Assembly (NCBI GenBank): GCA_950295325.1
Contig: OX485803.1
Coordinates: forward strand, 24,552,001 to 24,616,000
Reading direction: 5' to 3'
DNA: 64,000 nucleotides
Source of the DNA: Polytrichum commune
Lineage: Eukaryota; Streptophyta; Polytrichopsida; Polytrichales; Polytrichaceae
The position numbers were made by a program, and so were the translations under genes. Below the pieces are notes generated by a model. It searched no databases. It was not told where the DNA came from and saw only the letters and a program-made list of their open reading frames with translations. Of the stretch, positions 33,037 to 59,640 are shown one piece after another (position 1 is the stretch's first letter; every line of letters starts with the position of its first letter).

Positions 33037-33047
33037 GATTTTGTATG
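33037..33047 (+). repeat. Left target-site duplication of the giant transposon
   Basis: GATTTTGTATG occurs here and at 58,397-58,407, immediately outside the two inverted-repeat ends. Mutator-like elements usually make 8-11 bp duplications. The shared G at the last position leaves the exact length at 10 or 11. Confidence 0.75.
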
Positions 33048-33217
33048 GACGACACAGCTATGTGAGCGTAGAGCGGAGAGCGGAGAGCGGAAAGGAATTA
33101 AATTTAGTAAACTTCTCATACCAAATTTAGAAGTATTTTTTAAAAGTATCGAATATTCTCAGTATATTCTGGATTCTCTTTAAAATGGAATAAAATTGTG
33201 ACCTATTTCCGTGGAAT
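33047..33217 (+). repeat. Left terminal inverted repeat
   Basis: Imperfect TIR of about 170 bp. Conserved blocks are TGTGAGCGTAGAGCGGAGAG at 33,061 and CCTATTTCCGTGGAAT at 33,202. The GAGAGCGGA motif is repeated three times inside it, as in the right TIR. Confidence 0.8.
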
Positions 33218-33575: not shown

Positions 33576-34138
33576 ATGCACACAATGGGAGAGGAGAGAG
33601 ACATGTTTATTGGCCTAGGATGGGAGAAAAATATTAGAAGTCTAGGAGATCCCCATGTTCCCTTTAATACATCGTCGAAACATGACATAGGTGCTGGAAA
33701 TCAACATAGTGATGACTACGAGCTCACTCCATTTTCGCAGTCCACACAAGCATGGAGGTGGAGGATGCAGGAGGAGCAGAAACGATATACAAAAAAAAAA
33801 AAAAACGAGGTGATGTGCAGGAGAATGAGGAAACAAGGTGCATGAATAGTGAGGCAAATGATGCGGCTAATTTGAATGAAGACAAGGCAATCGACACGGA
33901 GCAGGAAGTCAAGATGGTAGGCGAATCTTCGAGGTCTTTGTCGTTTCGCGATAGAATGAGAGGATTATCACCGCATCGTCGTCCATTGAAGGATCGAATG
34001 AGGGATAAACGGTTTCGTACGTTGATTTGCTTCGACCGGGTCCACCTCCATCAAGAAGGGACGATGAAAAGAAGTCCGAAGCATGTAGGAGGATGGAAAC
34101 ACGGAAGTATAGTTGATAGACATAGTAGGCATGCTTGA
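33576..34138 (+). CDS. Candidate small accessory gene of the transposon, split by a poly-A run
   Basis: A frame from ATG 33,576 (a further in-frame ATG at 33,585) is protein-like up to a run of 15 A at 33,791-33,805. Beyond it the protein-like reading continues in another frame to 34,138, with a basic stretch containing RDRMRGLSPHRRPLKDRMRD. That second frame also has its own ATG at 33,752. Either the run length is miscalled or mutated, or only the second frame is used. A TATA box lies upstream and two AATAAA signals follow at 34,155 and 34,174. The gene would be convergent with the transposase. No domain recognised; function unknown. Confidence 0.35.
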
Positions 34139-37200: not shown

Positions 37201-37946
37201 ATGCCGTCCATGGATTGTGCCTTCTTATGAGAGGAAGAGACACCGAGTGGGGGCAGGACAAACATAATATCACCATCAAAGCGAGGGGGGAGGAAATTGA
37301 CCTCCTCAATTTGTAAGGTGTCATAATCCAGCTTCTTGAGGATGTTCTTCCTACCGGGCATGGAAGCTAGGGAACGTAGACATTGAAGCATGGAATTCGG
37401 GGGTTTGCCTGGAAAGGGAGGAAGAGGAGACGGAGGAGGCGGGGTAACAAAGGTGGAACGGACGGAGGATGGGGATGGCTTGTGAATGGGAGTGGAAACG
37501 GGGGGATCATCACCGTCGGAGGAATTGGAAAGATGTATGACAGTCTGCGTACCGGGCTCAGTCTTAACATTGACCAAGGGAGGAGTATAGAAAGTGGACG
37601 CAGAGGAATGGGGAGGGGTACGGATATTTGCGGATACATTCGTGGAAGGACATGGGAGTCCGTACACCCTGTATTTACCAGCGCAGAGTTCCCACATTGA
37701 CGAGCCGTTGTCGGCAACCCTAGGATTCTCACGCATGGTCAATGACAAAAGAGAAGTAGCAGTATCATAAATCTCGCGTTCGACCCAGATTGTACTATCT
37801 TGCAATGAGAATCTGATACTAAGGTGAAGTGAAGAGACAGATGCAAAACCATTTGCATCTATAGGGAAAAGAATAGGGATTCCGAGGCCATTGGCACGGA
37901 GCTCAACCATTTCTGACACAGAGGGCACAGTGGATGAGGAAGCCAT
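34288..37946 (-). CDS. Mutator-like (MULE) transposase with GCM/WRKY-type zinc region and SWIM finger; one in-frame stop
   Basis: Exon 1 is 37,946-35,835 (704 codons). A GT-AG intron (35,834-35,746) joins in frame to 35,745-34,288. Residues 280-370 hold a Cys/His cluster (C280, C285, C290, C329, C332, C338, C342, then RACIHLGNHHHPV) that resembles the WRKY-GCM1 zinc fold used by many MULEs for DNA binding. The catalytic core shows D541 (VYDGTYQ) and D590 (FMADSAQ), then C619-x2-H622. E723 in CNLAESVHNKW is a candidate third acidic residue. A SWIM finger (C1122-x-C1124...C1144-x-H1146) ends the protein. One TAA at 35,124-35,122 (codon 912) interrupts the frame ahead of the SWIM part. A possible 51-nt GT-AG intron would remove it in frame; otherwise the copy is truncated. 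Confidence 0.85.
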
Positions 37947-38145: not shown

Positions 38146-41100
38146 ATGAAGGAACCAAGTGACAATACAGTTCCCACAATCGATGTAGCCACAAAGCGGA
38201 AGAGGAGAAAGGGAGGCACGAGTTTCAGCACTTCGAAACAAAGGAAACGGAGAGAACTTAAGAAAAAAGATCTAACGAGCATAGAGGGAAGAGGGACTCC
38301 TTCAGATTTAAGCAAGCAGTGTCATGTGGATGAGATAGGATCTACGAATCCGCATATGAATTTGAAACCAATCGAGGAAGAAGGGGACGACAGTGGTTCA
38401 TGCGCACCATCAATGGCAGAGAGCGAGCATCGCACCAATTCTAATCAGAGCAACTCAAGGGAAGAGACAAGAGAAGACTCAATCAGCACAGTAAGCTTGT
38501 ATTGGATGTCACATATGACAATTGAAGTAAAACTGAGATATTGATTTGTGTCACGTCGTATAGGGTGGGCAGATTTTGTTATTATTTGGGCCATATTAGA
38601 AAAATCTGAAATTAGGGCGGGCTCGAGTTTCTGATTGGGCGGGGGGAATGAAGATTCGAAATGACGGTCGGATGGGAAGACCTGAAGGGGCGGCCTCTCG
38701 GTACACTTTAGGGTGTTGGGTCCAGTTTTTGGCTCAATAGTATTTGGCACCATATTCGAAGTTTCTGAAATCAGGTGTAGACTTGCAATCTGGTGGGAAT
38801 AGGAATCATAATTAAAATTTTTGAAATCAGGTGTAGACTAGGAATCAGGTGGGAAGAGTTCGGTACCATATTCGAACTTTCGGAGAACAGGTGTAGACTC
38901 GGAATCTGGTGTGGAGTGTTGGGGACCATATTCGAAGTTTCTGAAAACAGGTGTAGACTCGGATTCTGGTGGGAAGTGTTCGGGAGCATATTTGAAGTTT
39001 CTGGAATCAGGTGTAGACAAGGAATCTGGTGGGAAGCAAAACCCAAAACCATATTTGAAGTTTCTGAAATCAGGTGTAGACTCGGAATCAGTGGTATTTC
39101 AGATTTCAGGTGTAGATTTGGGTTTGATATTAATGTGATATGGGGCACCCTCTCGGAACCGAGAGGGTGGGCTAGATGGCCATTATGTGAGATTTCAGAT
39201 TTCAGGTTTAGATTTGGATTTGATATATATCTGAAATGGGCACCCTCTCGGAACCGAGAGGGTGGGCTAGGTCGCCATTTTTGACAAATCTGAAATCAGC
39301 TGTGGGCTCGAGTTCTGAATTGAAAGTGTTTTGAACATATTTGATTTCAGATTTCAGGTTTAGTTTTGGGTTTGATATATATCTGAAATGGGGCACCCTC
39401 TCGGTTCCGAGAGGGTAGGCTAGGTGGCCAAATAGTGTAGTTTCTGAAATCAGGTGTAGGCGATTGTGTGGATTTTGGTTTGACATTAGTGTGAAATGGG
39501 CACCCTCTCGGAACTGAGAGGGTGGGCAGGGTGGCCAATTATGATAAATATGAAATCAGGTGTGGGCTCGAGTTTCTGAATTCAAAGTATTTTGAACATA
39601 TTTGATTATCTGAAATGAGGTTTAGGGTCGGTATTTGGTTATATATGTGGGACCATATTTGATGATTTAAACATTTAGTGTGGTTATGAATTTCAATATG
39701 CTTGAGTGTGGCACCCTCTCGGTTCCGAGAGGGTGGGCACGGTGGCCAGATTTTGAAGTTTCTGAAATCAAGTTGAGAGTGATATTTCAAGTTTCACAGT
39801 GTTCGGGGCCATATTTCTCATTTTCTGAAATCATGTGGAAGTGTACTATTCAGCTTAGAAGAGTTCGGGGCCATATTTTAAGTTTCTGAAATCAAGTGTA
39901 GGCGATGAAGTGTGCATTCGATTTTGATTTTAGTGTGAAATTGGGCACCCTCTCTGCAATCAAGCGTAGGTTCGAATGTGAGTTTTGTATCAAAATGAGG
40001 CACCCTCTCGGAACCGAGAGGGTGGGGTGGGTGGCCAATTTCTGAGGATTCAGAATTCAGATGTAGATTGTAGTTTGATAAATATCTGAAATGGGGCACC
40101 CTCTCGGACCCGAGAGGATGGGCTAGGTGATCAAATAGTGTAGTTTCTGAAATCAGTTGTAGGCGATTATGTGGATTTTGGTTTGACATTAATGTGAAAT
40201 CGGCACCCTCTCGGAACCGAGAGGGTGGGATAGGTGCCCATTTTTGACAAATCTGAAATCAGGTGTGGGCTCGAGTTTCTGAATTGAAAGTGTTTTGAAC
40301 ATATTTGATTGCCTGAAATGAGGTGTAGGGTCGGTAATTGGTTATATATGTGGGGCCATATTTGAGGATTTAAACATTTAATGTAGTTATGAATTTCAAT
40401 ATGTTTGAGAGGGTGGGCACGGTGGCCAGATATTGAGGTTTTTGAAATCAGGTTTAGGGTGGTGATTCTAGTTTCACAGTGTTCAGGGCCATAATTCGAG
40501 TTTCTGAAATCAAGTGTATGCGATTAAGCGTGGATTCGATATTTATTTTAGTGTGAAATTGGGCACCCTCTCGGACCCGAGAGGGTGGGCTAGGTGGGCA
40601 GTTATGATAATTATGAAATCAGGAGTTGGCGAATTAGTGTGGATTCTTGTTTGACGTTAGTGTGAAATGGCCAACCTCTCGGAACCGAGAGGGTTGGAAG
40701 GTGGCAATTTATGATAAATATGAAATCAGGTGTGGGCTCAAGTTTCTGAATTGAAAGTGTTTTGAACAGATTTGATCGTCTGAAATGAGGTAAATCAGAA
40801 ATCACGTGCAGTCGAATTAGTGTGGATTCTTGTTTGACATTAGTATGAAATGGCCACCCTCTCGGAACCAAGAGGGTGGGCTAGGTGGCCATTATTTAGG
40901 ACTTCAGATTTCAGGTGCCGAGTTTGGTTTGATATACATCTGAAATGGGCACCCTCTCGGTTCCGAGACCGTTGGCTAGGTGGCCAATAATGATAAATCT
41001 GAAATCAGGTGCAGACGAATTAGTGTGGATTTGGGTTTGACATTACTGTGAAATGGGCACCCTCTCGGAACCGAGAGGGTGGGCTATGTGGCCAAATAGT

Positions 41101-44100
41101 GTAGTTTCTAAAATCAGGTGAAGGTTTTGGTTTGATATATATTTGAAATGGGGCACCCTCTCGGAACCGAGAGGGTGGGCTAGGTTGCCATTTTCTGAGG
41201 ATTCAGAATTCAGGTGTAAAGTTTGGTTTGATATATATCTGAAATGGGGCACCATCTCCGACCCGTGAGGGTAGGCTAGGTGGCCAAATAGTGTAGTTTC
41301 TAAAATCAGGTGTAGGCGAATGTGTGGATTTTGGTTTGACATTAGTCTGAAATGGGGCACACTCTCGGAACCGAGAGGGTGGGCTAGGTGGCCAAATAGT
41401 GTAGTTTCTGAAATCAGGTGTAGGCGATTGTTTGGATTTTGGTTTGACATTAGTGTGAAATGGGCACCCTCTCGGAACCGAGAGGGTGGGCTAGGTGGCC
41501 ATTATTTGAAATTTGAGATTGCAAGTTTAGATTTTGGTTTGATATATATCTGAAATGGGGCACCCTCTCGGAAACGAGAGGGTAGGCTAGGTGGCCAAAT
41601 AGTGTAGTTTCTGAAATCAGGTGTAGGCGATTGTGTGGATTTTGGTTTGACATTAGTGTGAAATGGGCCACCCTCTCGGAACCGAGAGGGTGCGCTAGGT
41701 GGCCAAATAGTGTAGTTTCTGAAATCAGGTGTAGGCGAGTGTTTGGCTTTTGGTTTGACATTAGTGTGAAATGGGCACCCTCTCGGAACCGAGACGGTGG
41801 GCTAGGTGGCCAAATAGTGTAGGTTCTGAAATCAGGTGTAGGAGAGTGTTTGGCTTTTGGTTTGACATTAGTGTGCAATGGGCACCCTCTAGGAACCGAG
41901 AGGGTGGGCTAAGTGGCCAAATAGTGTAATTTCTGAAATCAGGTGTAGGAGAGTGTTTGGATTTTGGTTTGACATTAGTGTGAAATGGGCACCCTCTCAG
42001 AACCCAGAGGGTGGGCTAGGTGGCCATTATTTGAGATTTGAGATTTCAGGTTTAGATTTTGGTTTGATATATATCTAAAATGGGGCACCCTCTCGGAACC
42101 GAGAGGGTAGGCTAGGTGGCCAAATAGTGTAGTTTCTAAAATCAGGTGTAGGCGATTGTGTGGAGTTTGGTTTGACATTCGTGTGAAATGGGCACCCTCT
42201 CGGAACCGAGAGGGTGGGCTAGGTGGCCAAATAGTGTAGTTTCTGAAATCAGGTGTAGCCGAGTGTTTGGCTTTTGATTTGACATTAGTGTGAAATGGGC
42301 ACCCTCTCGGAACCGAAAGGGTGGGTTAGGTGGCCATTATTTGAAATTTCAGAATTCAGGTGTAAAGTTTGGTTTGATATATATCTGAAATGTGAATTAG
42401 TGTGAAATGGGGCACCCTCTCGGAACCGAGAGGGTAGGCTAGGTGGCCAAATAGTGTAGTTTCTGAAATCAGGTGTAGGCGATTGTGTGGATTTTGGTTT
42501 GACATTAGTGTGAAATGGGCACCCTCTCGGAACCGAGAGGGTGTGCTAGGTGGCCATTCTTTGAAATTTGAGATTGCAGGTTTAGATTTTGGTTTGATAT
42601 ATATCTGAAATGGGGCACCCTCTCGGAACCGAGAGGGTAGGCTAGGTGGCCAAATAGTGTAGTTTCTGAAATCAAGTGTAGGCGATTGTGTGGATTTTGG
42701 TTTGACATTAGTGTGAAATGGGGCACCCTCTCGGAACCGAGAGGGTGGGCTAGGTGGCCAAATAGTGTAGTTTCTAAAATCAGGTGTAGGCGATTGTGTG
42801 GAGTTTGGTTTGACATTCGTGTGAAATGGGCACCCTCTCCGAACCGAGAGGGTGGGCTAGGTGGCCAAATAGTGTAGTTTCTGAAATCAAGTGTAGGCGA
42901 TTGTGTGGATTTTGGTTTGACATTAGTGTGAAATGGGGCACCCTCTCGGAACCGAGAGGGTGGGCTAGGTGGCCAAATAGTGTAGTTTCTGAAATCAGGT
43001 GTAGGCGAGTGTTTGGATTTTGGTTTGACATTAGTGTGAAATGGGCACCCTCTCGGAACCGAGAGGGTGGGCTAGGTGGTCATTATTTGAGATTTGAGAT
43101 TTCAGGTTTAGATTTTGGTTTGATATATATCTGAAATGGGGCACCCTCTCGGAACCGAGAGGGTAGGCTAGGTGGCCAAATAGTGTAGTTTCTAAAATCA
43201 GGTGTAGGCGATTGTGTGGAGTTTGGTTTGACATTAGTGTGAAATGGGCACCCTCTCGGAACCAAGAGGGTGGGCTAGGTGGCCAAATAGTGTAGTTTCT
43301 GAAATCAGGTGTAGGCGAGTGTTTGGCTTTTGGTTTGACATTAGTGTGAAATGGGCACCCTCTCGGAACCGAGAGCGTGGGCTAGGTGGCCAAATAGTGT
43401 GGTTATGAAATCAGGTGTAGGCGAGTGTGTTTATTTTGGTTTGACATTAGTGTGAAATGGGCACCCTCTCGGAACCGAGAGGTTGGCCTAGGTGGCCATT
43501 ATTTGAGATTGAAGATTTCAGGTTTAGATTTTGGTTTGATATATATCTGAAATGGGGCACCCTCTCGGAACCGAGAGGGTAGGCTAGGTGGCCAAATAGT
43601 GTAGTTTCTAAAATCAGGTGTAGGCGATTGTGTGGAGTTTGGTTTGACATTCGTGTGAAATGGGCACCCTCTCGGAACCGAGAGGGTGGGCTAGGTGGCC
43701 AAATAGTGTAGTTTCTGAAATCAGGTGTAGCCGAGTGTTTGGCTTTTGATTTGACATTAGTGTGAAATGGGCACCCTCTCGGAACCGAAAGGGTGGGTTA
43801 GGTGGCCATTATTTGAAATTTCAGAATTCAGGTGTAAAGTTTGGTTTGATATATATCTGAAATGTGAATTAGTGTGAAATGGGGCACCCTCTCGGAACCG
43901 AGAGGTTAGGCTAGGTGGCCAAATAGTGTAGTTTCTGAAATCAGGTGTAGGCGATTGTGTGGATTTTGGTTTGACATTATTGTGAAATGGGCACCCTCTC
44001 GGAATCGAGAGGGTGTGCTAGGTGGCCATTATTTGAAATTTGAGATTGCAGGTTTAGATTTTGGTTTGATATATATCTGAAATGGGGCACCCTCTCGGAA

Positions 44101-47100
44101 CCGAGAGGGTAGGCTAGGTGGCCAAATAGTGTAGTTTCTGAAATCAAGTGTAGGCGATTGTGTGGATTTTGGTTTGACATTAGTGTGAAATGGGGCACCC
44201 TCTCGGAACCGAGAGGGTGCCCTAGGTGGCCAAATAGTGTAGTTTCTGAAATCAGGTGTAGGCGACTGTTTGGCTTTTGGTTTGACATTAGTGTGAAATG
44301 GGCACCCTCTCGGAACCGAGAGGGTGGGCTAGGTGGCCAAATAGTGTAGGCTCTGAAATCAGGTGTAGGCGAGTATTTCGATTTTCGTTCGACATTAGTG
44401 TGAAATGGGCACCCTCTCGGAACCGAGAGGGTGGGCTAGGTGGCCATTATTTGAAATTTGAGATTGCAGGTTTACATTTTGGTTTGATATATATCTGAAA
44501 TGGGGCACCCTCTCGGAACCGAGAGGGTAGGCTAGGTGGCCAAATAGTGTAGTTTCTGAAATCAGGTCTAGGCGATTGTGTGGATTTTGGTTTGACATTA
44601 CTGTGAAATGGGCACCCTCTCGGAACCGAGAGGGTGGGCTAGGTGGCCAAATAGTGTAGTTTCTGAAATCAGGTGTAGGCGAGTGTTTGGCTTTTGGTTT
44701 GACATTAGTGTGAAATGGGCACCCTCTCGGAACCGAGAGGGTGGGCTAGGTGGCCAAATAGTGTAGGCTCTGAAATCAGGTGTAGGCGAGTGTTTGGATT
44801 TTGGTTTGACATTAGTGTGAAATGGGCACCCTCTCGGAACCAAGAGGGTGGGCTAGGTGGCCATTATTTGAGATTTGAGATTTCAGGTTTAGATTTTGGT
44901 TTGATATATATCTGAAATGGGGCACCCTCTCGGAACCGAGAGGGTAGGCTAGGTGGCCAAATAGTGTAGTTTCTAAAATCAGGTGTAGGCGATTGTGTGG
45001 AGTTTGGTTTGACATTAGTGTGAAATGGGCACCCTCTCGGAACCGAGAGGGTGGGCTAGGTGGCCAAATAGTGTAGTTTCTGAAATCACGTGTAGGCGAG
45101 TGTTTGGCTTTTGATTTGACATTAGTGTGAAATGGGCACCCTCTCGAAAGTGAGACGGTGGGCTAGGTGACCAAATAGTGTAGTTTCTGAAATCAGGTGT
45201 AGGCGAGTGTTTGGCTTTTGGTTTGACATTAGTGTGAAATGGGCACCCTCTCAGAACCAAGAGGGTGGGCTAGGTGGCCATTATGTGAGATTTCAGATTT
45301 CAGGTTTAGATTTTGGTTGGATATATATCTGAAATGGGGCACCCTCTCGGAACCGAGAGGGTGCGCTAACTGGCCAAATAGTGTAGGTTCTGAAATCAGG
45401 TGTAGGCGAGTGCTTGGCTTTTGGTTTGACATTAGTGTGAAATTGGCACCCTCTCGGAACCGAGAGGGTGGGCTAGGTGGCCAAATAGTCTAGTTTCTGA
45501 AATCAGGTGTAGGCGAGTGTTTGGATTTTGGTTTGACATTAGTGTGAAATGGGCACCCTCTCGGAACCGAGAGGGTGGGCTAGGTGGTCATTATTTGAGA
45601 TTTGAGATTTCAGGTTTAGATTTTGGTTTGATATATATCTGAAATGGGGCACCCTCTCGGAACCGAGAGGGTAGGCGAGGTGGCCAAATAGTGTAGTTTC
45701 TGAAATCAGGTGTAGGCGAGTGTTTGGATTTTGGTTTGACATTAGTGTGAAATGGGCACCCTCTCGGAACGGAGAGGGTGGGCTAGGTGGTCATTATTTG
45801 AGATTTGAGATTTCAGGTTTAGATTTTGGTTTGATATATATCTGAAATGGGGCACCCTCTCGGAACCGAGAGGGTAGGCTAGGTGGCCAAATAGTGTAGT
45901 TTCTAAAATCAGGTGTAGGCAATTGTGTGGAGTTTGGTTTGACATTAGTGTGAAATGGGCACCCTCTCGGAACCGAGAGGGTGGGCTAGGTGGCCAAATA
46001 GTGTAGTTTATGAAATCAGGTGTAGGCGAGTGTTTGGCTTTTGGTTTGACATTAGTGTGAAATGGGCACCCTCTCGGAACCGAGAGCGTGGGCTAGGTGG
46101 CCAAATAGTGTAGTTCTGAAATCAGGTGTAGGCGAGTGTATTTATTTTGGTTTGACATTAGTGTGAAATGGGCACCCTCTCGGAACCGAGAGGTTGGGCT
46201 AGGTGGCCATTATTTGAGATTTAAGATTTCAGGTTTAGATTTTGGTTTGATATATATCTGAAATAGGGCACCCTCTCGGAACCGAGAGGGTAGGCGAGGT
46301 GGCCAAATAGTGTAGTTTCTGAAAACAGGTGTAGGCGATTGTGTGGATTTTGGTTTGACATTAGTGTGAAATGGGCACCCTCTCCGAACCGAAAGGGTGG
46401 GTTAGGTGGCCATTATTTGAAATTTCAGAATTCAGGTGGAAAGTTTGGTTTGATATATATCTCAAATGGGGCACCCTCTCGGAACCGAGAGGGTGCGCTA
46501 GGTGGCCAAATAGTGTAGGTTCTGAAATCAGGTGTAGGCGAGTGGTTGGCTTTTGGTTTGACATTAGTGTGAACTGGTCACCCTCTCGGAACCGAGAGGG
46601 TGGGCTATGTGGCCAAATAGTGTAGGTTCTGAAATCACGTGTAGGCGAGTGTTTGGCTTTTGGTTTGAAATTACTCTGAAATGGGCACCCTCTCAGAACC
46701 AAGAGCGTGGGCTAGGTGGCCATTATTTGAGATTTGAGATTTCAGGTTTAGATTTTGGTTTGATATATATCTGAAATAGGGCACCCTCTCGGAACCGAGA
46801 AGGTGGGCTAGGTGGCCAAATAGTGTAGGTTCTGAAATCAGGTGTAGGCGAGTGTTTGGCTTTTGGTTTGACATTAGTGTGAAATGGGCACCCTCTCGGA
46901 ACCGAGAGCGTGGGCTAGGTGGCCATTATTTGAGATTTGAGATTTCAGGTTTAGATTTTGGTTTGATATATATCTGAAATAGGGCACCCTCTCGGAACCG
47001 AGAGGGTGGGCTAGGTGGCCAAATAGTGTAGTTTCTGAAATCAGGTGTAGGCGAGTGTTTGGCTTTGGTCTGACATTAGTGTGAAATGGGCACCCTCTCG

Positions 47101-50100
47101 GAACCGAGAGCGTGGGCTAGGTGGCCATTATTTGAGATTTGAGATTTCAGGTTTAGATTTTGGTTGGATATATATCTGAAATGGGGCACCCTCTCGGAAC
47201 CGAGAGGGTGCGCTAACTGGCCAAATAGTGTAGGTTCTGAAATCAGGTGTAGGCGAGTGCTTGGCTTTTGGTTTGAGAGTAGTGTGAAATTGGCACCCTC
47301 TCGGAACCGAGAGGGTGGGCTAGGTGGCCAAATACTGTAGTTTCTGAAATCAGGTGTAGGCGAGTGTTTGGATTTTGGTTTCACATTAGTGTGAAATGGG
47401 CACCCTCTCGGAACCGAGAGGGTGGGCTAGGTGGTCATTATTTGAGATTTGAGATTTCAGGTTTAGATTTTGGTTTGATATATATCTCAAATGGGGCACC
47501 CTCTCGGAACCGAGAGGGTAGGCTAGGTGGCCAAATAGTGTAGTTTCTAAAATCAGGTGTAGGCGATTGTGTGGAGTTTGGTTTGACATTAGTGTGAAAT
47601 GGGCACCCTCTCGGAACCGAGAGGGTGGGCTAGGTGGCCAAATAGTATAGGTTCTGAAATGAGGTGTAGGCGAGTGTTTGGCTTTTGGTTTCACATTAGT
47701 GTGAAATGGGCACCCTCTCAGAACCAAGAGCGTGGGCTAGGTGGCCATTATTTGAGATTTGAGATTTCAGCTTTAGATTTTGGTTTGATATATATCTAAA
47801 ATAGGGCACCCTCTCGGAACCGAGAGGGTGGGCTAGGTAGCCAAATAGTGTAGTTTCTGAAATCAGGTGTAGGCGAGTGTTTGGCTTTTGGTTTGACATT
47901 AGTGTGAAATGGGCACCCTCTCAGAACCAAGAGGGTGGGCTAGGTGGCCATTGTTTGAGATTTCAGATTTCAGGTTTAGATTTTGGTTTGATATATATCT
48001 GAAATGGGAAACCCTCTCGGAACCAAGAGGGTGGGCAAGGTGGCCAAATAGTGTAGGTTCTGAAATCAGGTGTAGGCGACTGTTTGGCATTTGGTTTGAC
48101 ATTAGTGTGAAATGGGCACCCTCTCGGAACCGAGAGGGTGGGCTAGGTGGCCAAATAGTGTAGGTTCTGAAATCAGGTGTAGGCGAGTGTTTGGCTTTTG
48201 GTTTGACATTAGTGTGAAATGGGCACCCTCTCAGAACCAAGAGCGTGGGCTAGGTGGCCATTATCTGAGATTTGAGATTTCATGTTTAGATTTTGGTTTG
48301 ATATATATCTGAAATAGGGCACCCTCTCGGAACCGAGAGGGTGGGCTAGGTGGCCAAATAGTGTAGTTTCTGAAATCAGGTGTAGGCGAGTGTTTGGCTT
48401 TTGGTTTGATATATATCTGAAATGGGGCACCCTCTCGGAACCGAGAGGGTGGGCTAGGTGGCCAAATAGTGTAGGTTCTGAAATGAGGTGTAGGCGAGTG
48501 TTTGGCTTTTGGTTTGACATTAGTGTGAAATGGGCACCCTCTCAGAACCAAGAGCGTGGGCTAGGTGGCCATTATTTGAGATTTGAGATTTGAGATTTAG
48601 ATTTTGGTTTCATATATATCTAAAATAGGGCACCCTCTCGGAACCGAGAGGGTGGGCTAGGTGGCCAAATAGTGTAGTTTCTGAAATCAGGTGTAGGCGA
48701 GTGTTTGGATTTTGGTTTCACATTAGTGTGAAATGGGCACCCTCTCGGAACCGAGAGGGTGGGCTAGGTGGTCATTATTTGAGATTTGAGATTTCAGGTT
48801 TAGATTTTGGTTTGATATATATCTGAAATGGGGCACCCTCTCGGAACCGAGAGGGTAGGCTAGGTGGCCAAATAGTGTAGTTTCTAAAATCAGGTGTAGG
48901 CGATTGTGTGGAGTTTGGTTTGACATTAGTGTGAAATGGGCACCCTCTCGGAACCGAGAGGGTGGGCTAGGTGGCCAAATAGTGTAGGTTCTGAAATGAG
49001 GTGTAGGCGAGTGTTTGGCTTTTGGTTTGACATTAGTGTGAAATGGGCACCCTCTCAGAACCAAGAGCGTGGGCTAGGTGGCCATTATTTGAGAGTTGAG
49101 ATTTCAGGTTTAGATTTTGGTTGGATATATATCTGAAATGGGGCACCCTCTCGGAACCGAGAGGGTGGGCTAGGTGGCCAAATAGTGTAGGTTCTGAAAT
49201 GAGGTGTAGGCGAGTGTTTGGCTTTTGGTTTGACATTAGTGTGAAATGGGCACCCTCTCAGAACCAAGAGCGTGGGCTAGGTGGCCATTATTTGAGATTT
49301 CAGATTTCAGGTTTAGATTTTGGTTTGATATATATCTGAAATAGGGCACCCTCTCGGAACCGAGAAGGTGGGCTAGGTGGCCAAATAGTGTAGGTTCTGA
49401 AATCAGGTGTATGCGAGTGTTTGGCTTTTGGTTTGACATTAGTGTGAAATGGGCACCCTCTCGGAACCGAGAGGGTGGGCTATGTAGCCAAATAGTGTAG
49501 TTTCTGAAATCAGGTGTAGGCGAGTGTTTGGCTTTTGGTTTGACATTAGTGTGAAATGGGCACCCTCTCAGAACCAAGAGGGTGGGCTAGGTGGCCATTA
49601 TTTGAGATTTCAGATTTCAGGTTTAGATTTTGGTTTGATATATATCAGAAATGGGGGACCCTCTCGGAACCGAGAGGGTGCGCTAGGTGGCCACATAGTG
49701 TAGGTTCTGAAATCAGGTGTAGGCGAGTGTTTGGCTTTTGGTTTGACATTAGTGTGAAATGGGCACCCTCTCGGAACCGAGAGGGTGGGCTATGTAGCCA
49801 AATAGTGTAGTTTCTGAAATCAGGTGTAGGCGAGTGTTTGGCTTTTGGTTTGACATTAGTGTGAAATGGGCACCCTCTCAGAACCAAGAGCGTGGGCTAG
49901 GTGGCCATTATTTGAGATTTGAGATTTCAGGTTTAGATTTTGGTTTGATATATATCTGAAATGGGGCACCCTCTCGGAACCGAGAGGGTGCGCTAGGTGG
50001 CCACATAGTGTAGGTTCTGAAATCAGGTGTAGGCGAGTGTTTGGCTTTTGGTTTGACATTAGTGTGAAATGGGCACCCTCTCGGAACCGAGAGGGTGGGC

Positions 50101-53100
50101 TAGGTGGCCAAATAGTGTAGCTTCTGAAATCAGGTGTAGGCGAGTGTTTGGCTTTTGGTTTGACATTAGTGTGAAATGGGCACCCTCTCGGAACCGAGAG
50201 GGTGGGCTATGTGGCCAAATAGTGTAGGTTCTGAAATGAGGTGTAGGCGAGTGTTTGGCTTTTGGTTTGACATTACTCTGAAATGGGCACCCTCTCAGAA
50301 CCAAGAGCGTGGGCTAGGTGGCCATTATTTGAGATTTGAGATTTCAGGTTTAGATTTTGGTTTGATATATATCTGAAATGGGGCACCCTCTCGGAACCGA
50401 GAGGGTGGGCTAGGTGGCCAAATAGTGTAGTTTCTGAAATCAGGTGTAGGCGAGTGTTTGGCTTTTGGTTTGACATTAGTGTGAAATGGGCACCCTCTCG
50501 GAACCGAGAGGGTGGGCTAGGTGGCCAAATAGTGTAGGTTCTGAAATCAGGTGTAGGCGAGTGTTTGGCTTTTGGTTTGACATTAGTGTGAAATGGGCAC
50601 CCTCTCGGAACCGAGAGGGTGGGCTAGGTCGCCAAATAGTGTAGTTTCTGAAATCAGGTGTAGGCGAGTGTGTTTATTTTGGTTTGACATTAGTGTGAAA
50701 TGGGCACCCTCTCGGAACCGAAAGGGTGGGTTAGGTGGCCATTATTTGAAATTTCAGAATTCAGGTGTAAAGTTTGGTTTGATATATATCTGAAATGGGG
50801 CACCCTCTCGGAACCGAGAGGGTAGGCTAGGTGGCCAAATAGTGTAGTTTCTGAAACCAGGTGTAGGTGATTGTGTGGATTTTGGTTTGACATTAGTGTG
50901 AAATGGGCACCCTCTCGGAACCGAGAGGGTGGGCTAGGTGGCCATTATTTGAAATTTGAGATTGCAGGTTTAGATTTTGGTTTGATATATATCTGAAATG
51001 GGGCACCCTCTCGGAACCGACAGGGTAGGCTAGGTGGCCAAATAGTGTAGTTTCTGAAAGCAGGTGTAGGCGATTGTGTGGATTTTGGTTTGACAATAGT
51101 GTGAAATGGGGCACCCTCTCGGAACCGAGAGGGTGCGCTATGTGGCCAAATACTGTAGTTTCTGAAATCAGGTGTAGGTGAGTGTTTGGATTTTGGTTTG
51201 ACATTAGTGTGAAATGGGCACCCTCTCGGAACCGAGAGGTTGGGCTATGTGGCCAAATAGTGTAGGTTCTGAAATCAGGTGTAGGCGAGTGTTTGGCTTT
51301 TGGTTTGACATTAGTGTGAAATGGGCACCCTCTCAGAACCAAGAGGGTGGGCTAGGTGGCCATTATTGGAGATTTGAGATTTCAGGTTTAGATTTTGGTT
51401 TGATATATATCTGAAATGGGGCACCCTCTCGGAACCGAGAGGGTGGGCTAGGTGCCCATTATTTGAGATTTGAGATTTCAGGTTTAGATTTTGGTTTGAT
51501 ATATATCTGAAATGGGGCGCCCTCTCGGAACCGAGAGGGTAGGCTAGGTGGCCAAATAGTGTAGTTTCTGAAATCAGGTGTAGGCGATTGTGTGGATTTT
51601 GGTTTGACATTAGTGTGAAATGGGCACCCTCTCGGCACCGAGAGGGTGGGCTAGGTGGCCATTTTTGACAAATCTGAAATCATGTGTGGGCTCGAGTTTC
51701 TGAATTGAAAGTATTTGGAACATATTAGATTGTCTGAAATGAGGTGTAGGGTCGGTATTTGGTTATATATGTGGGGCCATATTGGAGGATTTAAACATTT
51801 AGTGTGGTTATGAATTTCAATATGTTTGAGTGTGGCACCCTCTCGGTTCCGAGAGGGTGGGCACGGTGGCCAGATTTTGAAGTTTCTAAAATCAAGTTTT
51901 GAGTGGTGTTTCTGTTTTTACAGTGTTCGGGGCCATATTTGACATTTTCTTGAATCAACTCTAGAGTCTAATTTCAGTTTATAAATATTTGGGGCCCTAA
52001 TTTTGAGTTTCTCAAATCGAGTGTAGGTGATTAAGTGTGGTTTCGAGTTTGACATTACTGTGAAATGGGGCACCCTCTCGGAACCGAGAGGGTGGGCTAC
52101 ATGGCCATTATGTGAGATTTCAAATTTCAGGTCTAGATTTGGGTTTGATATATATCTGAAATGGGCACCCTCTCGGAACGGAGAGGGTGGGCTAGGTGGC
52201 CGTTTTTGACAAATCTGAAATCATGTGTGGGCTCGAGTTTCTGAATTGAAAGTAATTTGTACATATTTGATTTTCTGAAATGAAGTGTAGGGTCGGGTTT
52301 CTCGTTTTCATGTTGTCTGGGCCATGTTTTGAGTTTGTGAAATGAAGTGTTGGGACGGTGTTTGGTTATAAATGTGAGGCCATATTTGATGAGCTTAGAA
52401 TGTAGTCTAGTTTTGAGTTTCAATATGTGTCAAGGGGGGCACCCTCTCAGTTCCGAGAGGGGGGGCACTGTGGCCATATTTTGAAATTTTTGAAATCAGG
52501 TTTCGAGTGTGTTTCTGGTTTTATAGTGTTCGGGCCTATATTTGATATTTTCTGAAATCAAGTGTAGAGTCTGTTTTGGGGCCATGTTTTGAGTTTCTGA
52601 AATCGGGTATAGAGTCGGTGTTTGGTTATAAGTGTAGGGGCCATATTTGTATGCAAGTGTTCGGGGCTAGATTAGGAGATTTCTGAAATCAAGTGTAAGT
52701 CGGTAACATGGTTGACTTAATTCTTCTTAACAACTCACTCTTATATGTTGCAGATTGACCGTCATTTTTCCACCTTCCTCGTCACAGATATGACAATAGA
52801 GAAACTCCAGAAGGTGGCCACCACACATGTGGATGCTCATTATAAGGCCAAGTGGCTTCGGTGGTGGAATTCCACTCCCGACGTCAAAGAGAAGAACAAA
52901 TTTCCCTCGTCTCTCCCTCTTCGGGAGAAAGTCCTCGAAAACTGGCTCAACAAAGCTTCTTTTTGGGCTCAGGTGCATCTACAACTTTTTTCCATCTATT
53001 TGTTCATTTCTCTACTTTACATTTCTAACCATTTTTCTTTCTTGTTATAGTTGGAGAAGGGGGTTGAGGCTGAGATTGCTTCATTTGACAATGAGTGTTC

Positions 53101-56100
53101 CGCTGAAATCGACTGGGGTTCCATGGAGGATATTTTGCAACCGGCGAATTATGTTGAGCATTGGAGGCTGATTTTGTGGGACAAGGCATTTCTGGTTTAT
53201 TTTGACGACAAGGGAGACCTCAAATTTGTCAAAGGCCTTGATCTCATGGAATTTGATGAAGGCCCCATATCAATCAAACGCGTCGCTTATCGGTAATATT
53301 TTGAGTTTTCATTTAGTCCATTTTGTTCTCATTTCATTTCCTTTCCGCCACCTNNNNNNNNNNNNNNNNNNNNNNNNNNNNNNNNNNNNNNNNNNNNNNN
53401 NNNNNNNNNNNNNNNNNNNNNNNNNNNNNNNNNNNNNNNNNNNNNNNNNNNNNNNNNNNNNNNNNNNNNNNNNNNNNNNNNNNNNNNNNNNNNNNNNNNN
53501 NNNNNNNNNNNNNNNNNNNNNNNNNNNNNNNNNNNNNNNNNNNNNNNNNNNNNTTTTAGTTTATGATTTTCTTTATTTTCCAGGTTCATTCACCGTGAGC
53601 TCATTGTGAAGAATGCCCTGCCTTCTTTCTGCTTGCCAACTTTCCTTGTAGATTGGGTGGATGTCAACTCCATTCTTTGTGTGTATACGGCCATTCAAGT
53701 TGCAAAGTTTCCGGAGTCTCACTTGCAGGCTGGGGGATGGTACTTGGATTGTTCTGGAGGATTTGTGCCTGCGGAAGAGAAGAGTCTTTTTGCCAGCATT
53801 GTGAGTACTGCTCCCGAGCTGAGCATTATCCCCTTTGAGGAGCCCGACATCGTTGAGATTCCTCCTCCTCCGCCCAAGGCACCAAAAAGAAAGGGCAGAC
53901 CAAAGAATACCGCCACTCAAACAACTTCACAACTTGTCACTCGGTCTGTTTCAAAGACCCCCATTCAGCCATCCACCTTCATACGGAGTCCATCTAGGAC
54001 TCCTTCTGTTGTTCCATCAACTGCCCCCTCTAGCACTTCCTCAGCCTTTCGTCCACAAACTGTTGCTACTCCTTCTCACAGTGGCACTTCTCTTCTCTCC
54101 TTGCCTCGCAAAAGGAAGGCCGCCCTTTTGGATACGAGTGCCACCTCTTCGGGTTCCCCTAACACTCTTTCCCTCATCGAAAATGTGGACATGGTGCAAC
54201 TCATGCTGGATTCTGAGGTTGCAGAAGGTCCCCTCCCAGCATATACCCGCATCCAGGAGTTCATTGCCAAGATTTGTATCTTTCCTTTCGTCATTTTTCA
54301 AACTTCTCTTTTGGTTTGGTTCTTATTTTTTTTCGTCTTGTTCTCTCATGAGATTTTAATTGCAGGTTGGGACAGGTCGTTCCCGTGTGAACACCTCGAC
54401 TACAACTCACAAGGGCCTCGATTTGCTCTTCGCAGACGTTCCCGAGAATTTGCCGGTGCCCAACATCTCCACCGATGTTCCTGCTTGGAACAAGCTCCAT
54501 GAATCATACTATGAGTGTCTTTTTGCATTTGCGAAATCTAACCTCTATGATCATGGTGTCCTTGTGCTTGTCCATTGTGCTAGTGCCTCTGTTTCTAGAA
54601 CTGTTTTTGATTGGGCACACACTTACGATTTCTACATCGCTGAAGATTGGTTTGGGATGAATGATTTGGACCTTCAATCCCCTGTGGTCCCCTCTGGAGT
54701 GGTAAGCAACTCCAAAAACTACAATATTTGGACCATATTTGTAATTCTTAATTCAGGTGTAGTGTTGTCTTCTTAGTTTACAATTTATCGGGGCCATATT
54801 AGAGGATTCTGAAATCAGGTGTAGATTCGGCTTTCAAGTTTATAGGTGTTTTTCAAGTTCATAAATTTCCAGGGGCAATACTAGAGGATTCTAAAATCAC
54901 GTGTGCATTCGGCTTTCAAGTACATGAATTTCGAGGGGCCATATTTGAAGTTTTTTGAAATCAGGTGTAGTGTCTGCTTTCTAGTTTACAAGTGTTCGGG
55001 GCCATATTTTATTTTTTCTGAAATCAAGTATAGAGTCTGGTTTCTGTTTCGGGTGTACGGTCGGTGTTTGGTTATACGTGGGGGGGCCATATTTGAAGAT
55101 TCTATAATCTAGTGTAGTATTGAGTTTCCTCTCGGAACCGAGAGGTTGGGCACTGTGGCCAAACTTTGAAGTTTCTGAAATCAAGTTTAGAGTGATGTTT
55201 CTGGTTTTACATTGTTCGGTGCCATATTAAAAAAATTTGAAATCAGGTGTACTGTCGGCTTTGTAGTTTACAAGTGGTCGGGGCCATATTTTAATTTTCT
55301 GAAATCATGTATAGACTAGGCTTTGAAGTTCATAAATGTTTTTCAAATTTCATAAATTTTCAAGGGCCTTATTACGGGATTCTGAAATCAGGTGTAGATT
55401 CGGATTATTAGTTTACAAGTGTTCGGGGCCATATTAGATGATTCTGAAATCAGGTGTACACTAGGCTTAGAAGTTCATAAAGTTTTTTCAAATTTCATAA
55501 ATTGTTAGGGGCCTTATTTCAAGTGTTCGGGGCCATATTGGATATTTTCTGAAATCAAGTGTAGAGTCTGGTTTTTGGTTATACGTGGGAGGGCCATATT
55601 TGGAGATTCCAAAATGTTGTGTATATTTGAGTTTCAATATGTATATTAGTGTGAAATGGGCACCCTCTCGGAACCGAGAGGGTGGGCTAGGTGGCCAATT
55701 ATGATAAATCTGAAATCAGGTGTGGGCTCGAGTTTTTGAATTGAAAGTATTTTGAACAGATTTGATTGTCTGAAATGAGGTGTAGGGTTGGTATTTGGTT
55801 ATATATGTGGGGCCATATTTGAGGATTTAAACATTTAGTGTGGTTATGAATTTCAATATGTTTGAGTGTGGCACCCTCTCGGAACCGAGAGGGTGGGCAC
55901 GGTGGCCAGATTTTGAAGTTTCTGAAATCAAGTTTAGAGTGATGTTTCTGGTTTTACAGTGTTCGGGGCCATATTAAAATTTTCTGAAATCAGGTGGTGT
56001 CGGCTTTGTAGTTTACAAGTGTTCGGGGCCATATTTTAATTTTTTGAAATCAGGTATAGACTAGGCTTTGAAGTTCATAAATGTTTTTCAAATTTCATAA

Positions 56101-57968
56101 ATTTTTAGGGGCCTTATTACGGGATTCTGAAATCAGGTGTGGATTCGGATTTTTTTGTTTAAAAGTGTTCGGGGCCATATTAGATGATTATGAAATCAGG
56201 TGTATACTAGGATTTGAAGTTTTTCCAAATTTCATAAATTTTTAGGGGCCATATTAGGGTGGGCTAGGTGGCCAATTTGTGAGGTTTCAGATTTGAGGTG
56301 TAGATTTGGGTTTGATAGATATCTGAAATGGTGCACCCTCTCGGAACCAAGATTTCACAGTGGGCACAGTGGCCATATAGTGAAGTTTCTGAAATAAGGC
56401 TGAGTGGTGTTTCTGGTTTAAAAGTGTTCGGGGCCGTATTTGATATTTTCTGAAATGAAGTGTAGAGTCGGATTTATAGTTTACAAGTGTTTGGGGCCAT
56501 ATTAGATGATTATGAAATCAAGTGTAGACTAGGCTTTGAAGTTCATAAATGTTTTTCAAATTTCATAAATTTTTAGGGGCCTTATTAGGGGATTCTGAAA
56601 TCAAGTGTAGATTCGGATTTTTAGTTTACAAGTGTTCGGGGCCATAAAAGATGATTCTGAAATCAGATATAGACTAGGCTTTAAGTTCATAAATGTTTTC
56701 AAATTGCATAAATTTTCAGGGGCCATATTAGAGGATTCTGAAATCAGGTATACATTCGGCTTTCAAGTACATGAATTTCCAGGGGCCATAATCGAGGTTT
56801 TCTGAAATCAGGTGTAGCATCGGCTTTTTAGTTTACAAGTTCTCGGGGCCATATTTGAAGTTTCTGAAATCAGGTGTGAGGGGGTCACCCTCTCGGTTGG
56901 GTCTGACATCAGGTGTAGGGTCTACGAGGCCATTTTTGAGACATCTGAAATCAGGTGTACGTTCGAGTTTCTGATTTGAAAGTATCATTTAACATATTTG
57001 ATTATCTGAAATGAAGTGTACAGTCTGTTTTTCAGTTTATATGGTTTTGGGGCCATGTTTTGAGTTTCTGAAATAAGGTGTAGGGTCTTCTGAAATTGTT
57101 TTGAGTTTTTCAGACTCGGAAATTCAACATCAAGGTTCTTGTTCGTGCTAACTCCGTTCTCAAAGTGCGTGAGGAGGCTATGCAAGAGTATGGTTACAAC
57201 CTCCAGCGTGATGGATGGTTGAATGCTTTCACCGATGAGAAGAGCCAGGCGATGCGCAGTGATGGGGTACCTTGGCGAGGTGCTCGAGAAAAGCATCATG
57301 TTTTCTTCTCTATCCTCCTCGCTACTCTCACCGACAAGAATGATGTTATTATGGACTGGCAGTGTGGTGTAGGTACGCATTATCTTTCAGCATCATCCTT
57401 ACTTTGAATTTTCCGTTATTTTTTCTTCATTACTTTCATACTAACATTTTCCTTTTTTTTTTAGGTGGTTCGATTACAGCATGTTGCTCACTTGAGCGGC
57501 ATATTGTGGCGCTTGAGAGTGACCCCGTTATTTTCAATGCAATCCTTCTCCCCATGCGCGATTCCCAACCTTCGCGTACTCCCCGCTCAGTTGCCCCACC
57601 GTCTACCTCTATTTTTGATCCGCCTCAGAAGATGACCAAACGGGCATTCGGTTTTCTTTATGCGTAAGTTTGCTTTATATGTTTTGTCATGTTTACCTTC
57701 ATGTCATTTTCCCATCTTCATGTGTCTTCTCGTTTCTAATCTACTTGCTTGGGGGTTCAGAGTGCCAGGGGAGAACGCAGTCCTTCGTCGAGGCGTGTGT
57801 TCGAGTCCTTCCAAGACGTTCGAGCTCCCTCCGTATGCTGCTGAGCTTGCCAATGTTTTAGCGGAAGCTCCGTCTCCACCTCCTAGTCGCATCCGACCAT
57901 TCAAAAAGCTAGTATTGGATTTCCTAGATATAGAGGCCGAGGAGGGCGAAGATAGTGATAGAGGATAG
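38146..57968 (+). CDS. Beta-class DNA N4/N6-methyltransferase-like accessory protein (8 exons, 829 aa)
   Basis: Exons: 38,146-38,490; 52,754-52,972; 53,051-53,292; 53,584-54,275; 54,376-54,701; 57,114-57,372; 57,465-57,663; 57,761-57,968. All have GT-AG borders and matching phases. The N terminus is very basic (KRKRRKGG near residue 17, a likely nuclear signal). Residues 116-350 form an unrecognised folded region. An AT-hook-like KRKGRPK sits at 370-376, then a Ser/Thr/Pro linker. From about 513 the reading resembles amino-methyltransferases: LDLLFADVPEN (motif IV position, D520-E523), then GVLVLVHCASASVSRTVFDW. At the C-terminal end comes DVIMDWQCGVGGSITACC (motif I, 686-702) and VALESD (E712, expected to contact the SAM ribose). 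Motif IV before motif I is the beta-class order. DVPE replaces DPPY/W, so catalysis is doubtful. An N gap in intron 3 may hide sequence. Confidence 0.72.
38491..52753. repeat. Repeat-filled 14.3-kb intron 1 with palindromic tandem array
   Basis: The intron is made almost wholly of related repeats. Outer parts (38.55-39.1 kb and 51.7-52.7 kb) hold units of about 60 bp around TTTCTGAAATCAGGTGTAG and TGTTCGGGGCCATATT. From 39,146 to 52,461 a 24-bp palindrome recurs, more than 100 times: arms CACCCTCTCGG and CCGAGAGGGTG around a central AA (sometimes TT). In the dense core (about 40.9-51.65 kb) palindromes are spaced by two unit types: about 107 bp, with CCAAATAGTGTAGTTTCTGA, and about 96 bp, with TGATATATATCTGAAATGGG. 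Open frames of 60-150 codons across it are by-products of the repeats. The 107 + 96 period is not a multiple of three. Confidence 0.93.
53354..53553. other. Assembly gap (200 N)
   Basis: Exactly 200 N, a typical placeholder, inside intron 3 of the methyltransferase-like gene. The flanking donor (53,293) and acceptor (53,583) join in frame, but an exon inside the gap cannot be excluded. Confidence 0.98.
54702..57113. repeat. Repeat-filled intron 5 (2.4 kb) sharing the intron 1 families
   Basis: Contains the same units as intron 1: CTGAAATCAGGTGTAG, TGTTCGGGGCCATATT, and complete or partial palindromes at about 55,128, 55,660, 55,872, 56,334 and 56,888. A module of about 180 bp (55,706-55,876) is nearly the same as 51,665-51,845 in intron 1. 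Exon 6 follows a normal TTTTTCAG acceptor. Confidence 0.88.
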
Positions 57969-58275: not shown

Positions 58276-58396
58276 ATTCCACGGAAATAGGCACTGCTTC
58301 TCCTAAAATTACCCAACAAATTCTAAATTTTCTGCTCCCCAATCTCTGCTATCCGCTCTCTGCTCTCCGCTCTACGCTCACACTACTAAGTTTCCC
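58276..58396 (-). repeat. Right terminal inverted repeat
   Basis: Read on the minus strand it starts GGGAAACTTAGTAG, then TGTGAGCGTAGAGCGGAGAG, and ends with the internal block CCTATTTCCGTGGAAT. It is shorter than the left TIR by about 50 bp. Confidence 0.8.
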
Positions 58397-58407
58397 GATT
58401 TTGTATG
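58397..58407 (+). repeat. Right target-site duplication
   Basis: GATTTTGTATG, identical to 33,037-33,047 and directly abutting the right TIR. Confidence 0.75.
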
Positions 58408-58815: not shown

Positions 58816-59640
58816 ACATCAGTAGCCAAGAGCTGCCTTACTCTAGCAACTAATACACCTGAATCAGTAGCCGAGAGTTGCCTTGCTCCAGCAACTAGTG
58901 CCTTGAATCAATAGCCGAGAGTTGCCTTGCTCCAGCAACTAGTGCCTTGAATCAATAGCCGAGAACTGCCTTGCTCCAACAACTAGTGCCCCGATTCAGT
59001 AGCCGAGAACTGCCTTACTCCAGCAACTAATGCCCTGAATCAGTAGCCGAGAGCTGCCTTAATCCAGCAACTAATACACCTGAATCAGTAGCCGAGAGCT
59101 GCCTTCAGCTCCAGCAACTAGTGCCCCGAATCAGTAGCCGAGAACTGCCTTACTCCAGCAACTAATACACTTGAATCAGTAGCCAAGAGCTACCTTCAGC
59201 TCCTGCAACTAGTGCCCCGAATCAATAGCCGAGAACTGCCTTACTCCAGCAACTAATGCCCTGAATCAGTAGCCGAGAACTGCCTAGCTCCAGCAAGTAG
59301 TGACCCGAATCAGTAGCCGAGAACTGCCTTACTCTAGCAACTAATACACCTGAATCAGTAGCCGAGAGCTGCCTTCAGCTCCAGCAACTAGTGCCCCGAA
59401 TCAATAGCCGAGAACTGCCTTACTCCAGCAACTAATGCCCTGAATCAGTAGCCGAGAACTGCCTAGCTCCAGCAAGTAGTGACCCGAATCAGTAGCCGAG
59501 AACTGCCTTACTCTAGCAACTAATGCCCTGAATCAGTAGCCGAGAGTTGCCTTAATCCAACAACTAATACACCTGAATCAGTAGCCGAGAGCTGCCTTAC
59601 TCCAGCAACTAATACACTTGAATCAGTAGCCGAGAGCACC
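58816..59640 (+). repeat. Minisatellite of about 18 units, 44-48 bp
   Basis: Unit begins CAGTAGCCGAGAACTGCCTT, then CTCCAGCAACTAATGCCCTGAAT. Variants (ACTAGTGCCCCG, ACTAATACACCTG) appear in recurring order, suggesting multi-unit duplication, for example the blocks near 59,160-59,300 and 59,335-59,480. It lies about 420 bp right of the transposon end. Non-coding. Confidence 0.92.

Follow-up and report, generated by a model that had tools for sequence, protein, structure and literature searches.

The transposon and its accessory gene

The window, that is, the whole stretch of 64,000 nucleotides of Polytrichum commune analysed here (contig OX485803.1, positions 24,552,001 to 24,616,000 of the forward strand), contains a large DNA transposon with a transposase gene and a divergent accessory gene. 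The accessory protein has a domain assigned, from profiles and models, to the beta-class DNA amino-methyltransferases, and the introns of its gene carry arrays of the palindrome CTCGGNNCCGAG. An intergenic gap of 200 bp separates the start of accessory exon 1 from the transposase gene, which runs from 37946 downwards. The features of the element, in window coordinates, are the following.

33037-33046: left target-site duplication (TSD) GATTTTGTAT, 10 bp, a perfect match to the right one
33047-58396: complete transposon, 25,350 bp including a 200-N gap; ends set by where other copies cease aligning
33047-33094, + strand: left terminal inverted repeat (TIR), GGACGACAC...TGTGAGCGTAGAGCGGAGAGCGG
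34288-37946, − strand: transposase gene, with DGT...ADS...CxxH and a C-terminal CxC-x19-CxH SWIM-like finger; at least 83 matches in the genome
38146-38490, + strand: accessory exon 1, basic and of low complexity
38491-52753, + strand: intron 1, 14.3 kb, mostly a tandem array with periods of ~107, 203 and 310 over 40823-51668; 87 CTCGGNNCCGAG palindromes
52754-52972, + strand: accessory exon 2, GT-AG model
53051-53292, + strand: accessory exon 3, GT-AG model
53584-54275, + strand: accessory exon 4, containing GGWYLD, which is common to family D
54376-54701, + strand: accessory exon 5, methyltransferase-fold domain; FADVPEN at the motif IV position
54702-57113, + strand: intron 5, repeat-rich; three palindromes
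57114-57372, + strand: accessory exon 6, WRGAREK at the motif X position; DWQCGVG at the start of motif I
57465-57663, + strand: accessory exon 7, GGSITACC and VALESD; S-adenosylmethionine (AdoMet)-binding side
57761-57968, + strand: accessory exon 8, acidic C terminus
58349-58396, − strand: right TIR, 94% complementary over 34 nt
58397-58406: right TSD GATTTTGTAT, 10 bp

An earlier note on this DNA had proposed an 829-residue protein encoded in eight exons with an intact frame. Rebuilding the gene from its GT-AG junctions bears this out, giving 829 codons in eight exons on the + strand with zero internal stops. The span given in the note, 53584-57968, corresponds to exons 4-8 and falls short of the whole gene; exon 1 lies 14 kb upstream, before the tandem-array intron. 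An assembly gap of 200 N at 53354-53553 lies within intron 3. The accessory gene of the window element is open, unlike the transposase gene, which has one in-frame stop at 35122-35124 that is absent at that place from the five other copies read. Exon 1 was recovered next to the transposase in both of the two further elements tested, with identities of 61% and 37%.

The accessory gene goes beyond chance because its exon 5 recurs at 188 loci or more, the matches listed being split 95 to 93 between subfamilies A and B. The methyltransferase-like domain has at least 236 matches in the genome with one query and at least 256 with a diverged one; the domain and exon-5 counts are lower bounds, the best 150 candidates having been scored. 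The transposase has at least 83 matches (83 of 2191 candidates scored). Among the matches listed, 67 of these 83 lie no more than 40 kb from an exon-5 locus and 63 of the 67 are divergent; random placement (1000 trials) gives a mean of 3.4 and a maximum of 12. The distance from the transposase match to exon 5 ranges from 6.3 to 38.8 kb among divergent subfamily A pairs. The exon-5 loci are unevenly spread: 67 of the at least 188 fall within C4:41-59 Mb, 18 Mb of one chromosome, a cluster that suggests a low-recombination or otherwise permissive region.

Forty-four accessory loci were aligned (43 others and the window), 38 of which are complete over exons 5-7 by the criterion used here; L028, L029, L032, L042, L046 and L047 were left out as incomplete. 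Of the complete loci, 27 are stop-free over exons 5-7. The median ratio of nonsynonymous to synonymous substitution rates (dN/dS) over these exons is 0.21 (38 loci; 560 pairs with dS > 0.1). Between subfamilies A and B it is 0.11-0.14 where calculable, values that are indicative only because synonymous sites are saturated or nearly so. As judged from these ratios, purifying selection acts on exons 5-7, in agreement with the selection that the earlier note had read from the intact frame. Intron 6 is absent from the subfamily A copies L011-L027, in which exons 6 and 7 are contiguous and in frame, a case of intron loss or gain within the family.

The limits of the element were set by cutting out five closely related copies at both ends and comparing where their alignments stop. 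The end points GGACGACAC... and ...GAGTTTCCC are common to four of the five, and 10-bp duplications flank four of these five copies (three perfect, one with 9/10; the fifth is unresolvable within its terminal repeat). The window ends, 33047 and 58396, correspond to those of the other copies and are flanked by a perfect duplication; the element is therefore complete at 25.35 kb, and the gene is indeed carried by a transposon, as had been claimed. The terminal repeats bear GAGCGG units, a motif distinct from the palindrome core, and some copies have ends that are 97-99.6% identical. For the subfamily B copy at C4:9.24 Mb no TSD is available, because the 2,850 bases read on the accessory side did not reveal the end of the element.

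The 10-bp duplication beside the TIRs falls within the range of 8-11 bp described for Mutator-like elements in the available part of PMC6446971. The SWIM-like finger reads CNC-x19-CKH and is retained in five other copies read; it has no Pfam match. CxCxnCxH is the pattern of a SWIM finger. The MULE transposase domain PF10551 gives no Pfam match for the window pieces or for a chimeric transposase query, and its hits overlap none of the transposase loci (45 of 142 hits and 36 of 83 loci compared). An hhalign comparison with four host MULEs was not significant: the score of 17.3 was attained by 35 of 150 shuffles. Since PF10551 misses the transposase, the Mutator-like character proposed in the note is retained by TSD length, TIRs and SWIM-like finger only. 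A + strand open frame of 128 amino acids (aa) lies at 33752-34138, between the left TIR and the 3′ end of the transposase gene; a separate 44-bp tandem repeat of ~18 copies lies just outside the element, at 58818-59637.

Fold and active site of the accessory protein

The order of motifs is permuted, motif IV preceding motif I, as had been noted: LDLLFADVPEN, at motif IV, and GVLVLVHCASASV are both encoded by exon 5, and DVIMDWQCGV, with motif I, is encoded by exon 6. A Pfam search with the 829-aa window protein found no domain, PF01555 included, at E ≤ 10. Nine subfamily sequences are more informative: all nine match PHROG 18293 ‘methyltransferase’ (best 4.1e-5), eight match PHROG 3008 ‘DNA methyltransferase’ (best 1.9e-3), seven match NCBIfam CcrM (best 1.4e-3) and four match PF01555 (best E 0.038). 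The profile check with PF01555 that the note had proposed thus fails for the window protein, is marginal for four of the nine and succeeds for relatives in the same genome, the cut-off of 26.7 bits being passed by family C (36.8, hand-spliced) and family D (35.5 and 33.7). A family D protein aligns with residues 215-744 of the window protein at 23% identity (E 7e-28). The sole matches of a profile search against PDB sequences are two M1.HpyAVI sequences of H. pylori, deposited as ‘DpnA’ (0.0029 and 0.0031).

A tblastn search of phages (limit E 10) returned 63 records, the best at E 1e-3, and a DNA methylase or methyltransferase annotation stands in all 30 among the matches listed. An hhalign comparison with seven phage beta-class enzymes gives 53.5 on the motif X-I side (63 columns); the reversed comparison gives 15.2, and 200 column shuffles give a mean of 14.6 and a maximum of 25.5. 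For the motif IV half taken by itself, the score is 25.0 (46 columns; 200 shuffles: mean 11.4, maximum 18.0). A phage profile including one protein of another class aligns over 196 columns across the domain, with a score of 52.7. A scan of viral contigs with the transposon alignment gave 57 pattern-matching stretches, none confirmed by tblastn, and the plasmid tblastn search gave one match only, at E 2. The family alignments and the intermediates C and D make the methyltransferase link both direct and indirect.

With 32 viral beta-class rows added to the alignment, AlphaFold2 gives a model with a mean predicted local distance difference test score (pLDDT) of 66.0 and a predicted template-modelling score (pTM) of 0.65; residues 11-70 and 201-250 of the model average 72-93 per block of ten. 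Its 43 PDB matches at E ≤ 1e-3 are all DNA methyltransferases or putative DNA modification methylases by title, CcrM first (4.3e-12), a support that is partly circular because of the viral rows. VIA-align Z values are 17.5 for MboIIA, 15.9 for the bdelloid N4C enzyme and 14.4 for PvuII. The structure check suggested in the note therefore recovers a DNA methyltransferase fold, given those rows, and the amino-methyltransferase fold it had named is upheld by the 9/9 PHROG matches, the hhalign scores above all 200 shuffles and the PDB structures. On these profiles and models, residues ~500-727 belong among the beta-class N6A/N4C DNA methyltransferases, with motif IV before motif I, and the accessory protein descends from a prokaryotic-type beta-class DNA amino-methyltransferase.

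Several related families accompany subfamilies A and B. Two copies of family C were read, L202 (C1:2492264) and L203 (C2:11839627), and dozens of similar weak PF01555 loci occur in the genome. Family D (L200, C1:9662141; L201, C4:44111698) has a 577-aa open frame in three loci and 12 loci at ≥84% identity; tblastn found no transposase at its copy on C1. A further family consists mostly of 153-aa open frames with ~36% identity to family D, for example at C3:38257683 and C1:482350, and is spread, in dozens of copies, across all seven large contigs. Strong PF01555 matches on C10 and C12, within the first 31 kb of each, are possibly bacterial contamination of the assembly. The genome also gives 19 RbcS matches, 18 of which are close to full length, as would be expected of a green plant.

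The catalytic motif IV of beta-class enzymes is [DNS]PP[YFW], in which the aromatic residue stacks on the base. None of the 60 transposon loci from families A and B has this motif with its aromatic: 59 retain Asp and 55 retain Pro, and the aromatic position is taken by Glu in 55, Lys in three, Asp in one and Gly in one. Pro-Tyr is invariant in motif IV of all seven phage relatives, which offer the fairer comparison, because the tblastn matches that led to them do not cover motif IV. Among 80 IMG/VR loci, 72 fit the pattern (DLPY 43, DPPY 21, DIPY 5, DMPY 2, DVPY 1), a tally biased because one of the two fetching patterns already demands PY. The change extends to further families. One family C copy has ADLPEG, and of seven further loci fetched, Glu stands in five of the six that are readable (DIPEN in L206 and L209, DISEN in L208, ADLPEG in L207, VDIPEG in L211; a stop takes that place in L210, and L212 is without a readable motif). 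Of family D, one copy reads DIPY and another DIPD.

The AdoMet side is better kept. GGS, which supplies the motif I glycines expected for AdoMet binding, is found where exon 7 begins in 53 of 59 loci, ALES is present in 46 of 59 and the motif X Lys in 58 of 60 (two not aligned). Because Glu replaces the catalytic aromatic, catalysis is doubtful and the fold does not imply methylation; the N4/N6 methylase identity put forward in the note thus holds for the fold and is doubtful for the activity. Judging by the residues, catalysis has probably been lost or changed, the Glu looks selected rather than decayed, and binding of AdoMet or S-adenosylhomocysteine may survive.

Palindrome arrays in the introns

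The window contains 90 copies of CTCGGNNCCGAG, 87 in intron 1 and three in intron 5, and none elsewhere. Even at one mismatch, the core is missing from the 38,638 flanking bases and from the transposase half of the element. In other elements, the two longer stretches read both contain it, as do 14 of 18 mid-intron samples. Genome-wide, the core occurs 7400 times against 154 for a backward control, GGCCTCGGATCCGAGGCC 2171 times against 0, and CCTCTCGGAACCGAGAGG 735 plus 895 times against 0. The first 100 of the 1630 CCTCTCGGAACCGAGAGG places are all in two elements. Among the matches listed, 49 of 50 distinct GGCCTCGGATCCGAGGCC places are no more than ~8 kb away from a match to the transposase or the methyltransferase-like domain, and for 88 of 100 core places the distance to such a match is no more than ~15 kb.

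Within one array, centres and flanks are largely homogeneous; from one sublineage to another they change. Young A copies have centre AT and GGCC-type flanks, the window has CCTCTCGGAACCGAGAGG and the B copies have other types; two centres are mixed in samples L192, L196 and L191. The family C copy on C1 sits amid CTCGGGACCGAG and CTCGGATCCGAG sites. Outside the core, the observed/expected ratio of CpG is 0.36 in the intron, 0.40 in the right flank and 0.63 in the left flank.

Known systems and the proposed role

N4/N6 methylase accessory genes have been reported in algal transposons. According to the available part of PMC12477816, Sola1-1_Ec32 of Ectocarpus is a 21.5-kb giant DNA transposon whose accessory protein combines a ParB-like domain with an N4/N6 DNA methyltransferase, and marking of the element's own sequence was suggested for this brown-algal protein. 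The likeness to the present element lies in the giant size, an accessory gene opposite the transposase strand and the same methyltransferase class. The differences are the Sola1 superfamily and the ParB-like domain, for which the 829-aa protein has no Pfam match at E ≤ 10 (Pfam only); an altered active site and a palindrome array, present here, are not mentioned for Sola1-1_Ec32 in that part of the text. The present case is a variant, because the algal accessory protein is the same kind of partner; new relative to it are another transposase type, the lack of a ParB match, the altered active site and the palindrome arrays.

VANC proteins, as described in the available parts of PMC5735166 and PMC10398659, bind a short motif that is arranged in tandem repeats, some of them inside VANC introns, and strip methylation from their own family; the motif differs between families and evolves together with the protein. 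The present element shares with VANDAL/VANC a family-specific short motif in tandem repeats, located in non-coding parts of the element and in introns of the accessory gene. By those descriptions VANC has DUF1985/DUF287, however, and not a methyltransferase fold, and no Pfam match to these domains at E ≤ 10 was found for the 829-aa protein. The VANC21 motif is YAGTATTAY, whereas the palindrome here contains CpG, and binding has been demonstrated for VANC and is inferred here.

The beta-class enzymes themselves (PF01555; CcrM, MboIIA, M.RsrI, M.PvuII and bdelloid N4CMT) share the fold, the permuted motif order and the AdoMet-side motifs; the transposon protein differs in D[IV]PE for [DNS]PP[YFW], a long N-terminal half, eight exons and its transposon setting. 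TET/JBP genes in fungal DNA transposons (PMC12730594) and C5 methyltransferases in retrotransposons (PMC5890265), according to the available parts of both papers, are likewise DNA-modification enzymes carried by mobile elements, but of unrelated enzyme families and other element types. A literature search, covering papers in part, found no Mutator-like element with an amino-methyltransferase partner, and the word methyltransferase is absent from the main text of the Mutator survey PMC6446971.

The reading tentatively preferred here is that the accessory protein is a self-recognition, anti-silencing factor on a repurposed methyltransferase fold. The protein, probably as a dimer, would recognise the element's own CTCGGNNCCGAG arrays through the inherited fold and its N-terminal half; this would keep the element from being silenced, as VANC does for VANDAL, and the sublineage-specific arrays would give each lineage its own address. 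A dimer is suggested because the putative recognition site is palindromic; beta-class enzymes commonly dimerise. Anti-silencing is favoured because the cis-anatomy, here combined with an unrelated protein, resembles that of VANDAL/VANC and because the palindrome suggests a dimer. More speculatively, lineages A, B, C, F and their relatives might represent a radiation in which a methyltransferase was turned into a DNA-address reader, its base-flipping site traded for a conserved D[ILV]PE, each lineage having its own intronic arrays of CTCGGNNCCGAG variants, with anti-silencing or self-recognition arising independently of VANC.

Several observations weigh against the anti-silencing reading. The core is absent from four of the 18 intron samples (L182, L184, L194 and L195; an unrelated palindrome common to L184 and L195 suggests a nested insert), 12 of the 100 listed core places lie away from a known match, and the 10.6 kb read around the family D copy with DIPY contain no core. 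Among single mismatches in the core, 33 of 73 are CpG transitions; protection of the core CpGs from decay is not supported, and because they decay the arrays are not permanently methylation-free. An AT-hook suspected in exon 4 is not conserved (0/39 copies having the region, 43 searched). As to the fold, AlphaFold2 with transposon rows only yields a poor model (pLDDT 39.9, pTM 0.36) whose PDB matches, CcrM first at E 1.9e-3, include none at ≤1e-3 and lend weak support; the better structure needed the 32 viral enzymes. It could also be the transposase that reads the palindrome, or the palindrome could be a selfish minisatellite.

That the partner is an active amino-methyltransferase, marking its own palindromes with N4-methylcytosine (4mC) or N6-methyladenine (6mA) and so blocking host silencing, appears unlikely: the AdoMet-side residues are mostly kept, N6A/N4C enzymes are the closest folds and one family D copy has DIPY, but the aromatic is missing in all 60 A and B loci and Glu is found in further families too. 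A MURB-like cofactor acting in transposition with the transposase, with the arrays as internal binding sites or enhancers for either protein, is likewise doubtful. The divergent pairing is frequent and some Mutator groups have a second, antisense open reading frame (PMC6446971, available part); the terminal repeats, however, bear a different motif, the GAGCGG units, and the transposase half of the window element lacks the core.

The position of the arrays, downstream of the divergent promoter region and in the partner's own intron 1, would suit a repressor or copy-number regulator that binds them and throttles its own or the transposase's expression. Such tight self-restraint sits poorly with the many copies, some with nearly identical ends, and this role is quite improbable. 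A reading of the arrays as selfish minisatellites, and of the partner as a passenger that serves some unrelated function, is very improbable: neutral expansion of tandem arrays is possible, the distance between transposase and exon 5 is variable and the CpGs of the core decay, but A and B elements share the core while differing in its centres and flanks, the core is present beside a family C copy too, and the intron outside the core is as CpG-poor as stated above.

If the partner reads the arrays, as the anti-silencing reading has it, the element would show that sequence-specific anti-silencing of transposons arose a second time, in a protein whose fold is known and for which there is a candidate DNA address, and the escape of large TIR transposons from silencing would become a testable question. 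An enzyme fold that in other settings places marks on DNA would then serve anti-silencing. If the partner has kept its catalytic activity, the element would be a case of a eukaryotic transposon whose own protein, with an unusual active site, may mark the element's DNA with 4mC or 6mA. In both cases D[ILV]PE is a change, conserved and unexplained, to an active site that has been studied in depth, and the element is a testable candidate for a transposon self-protection system.

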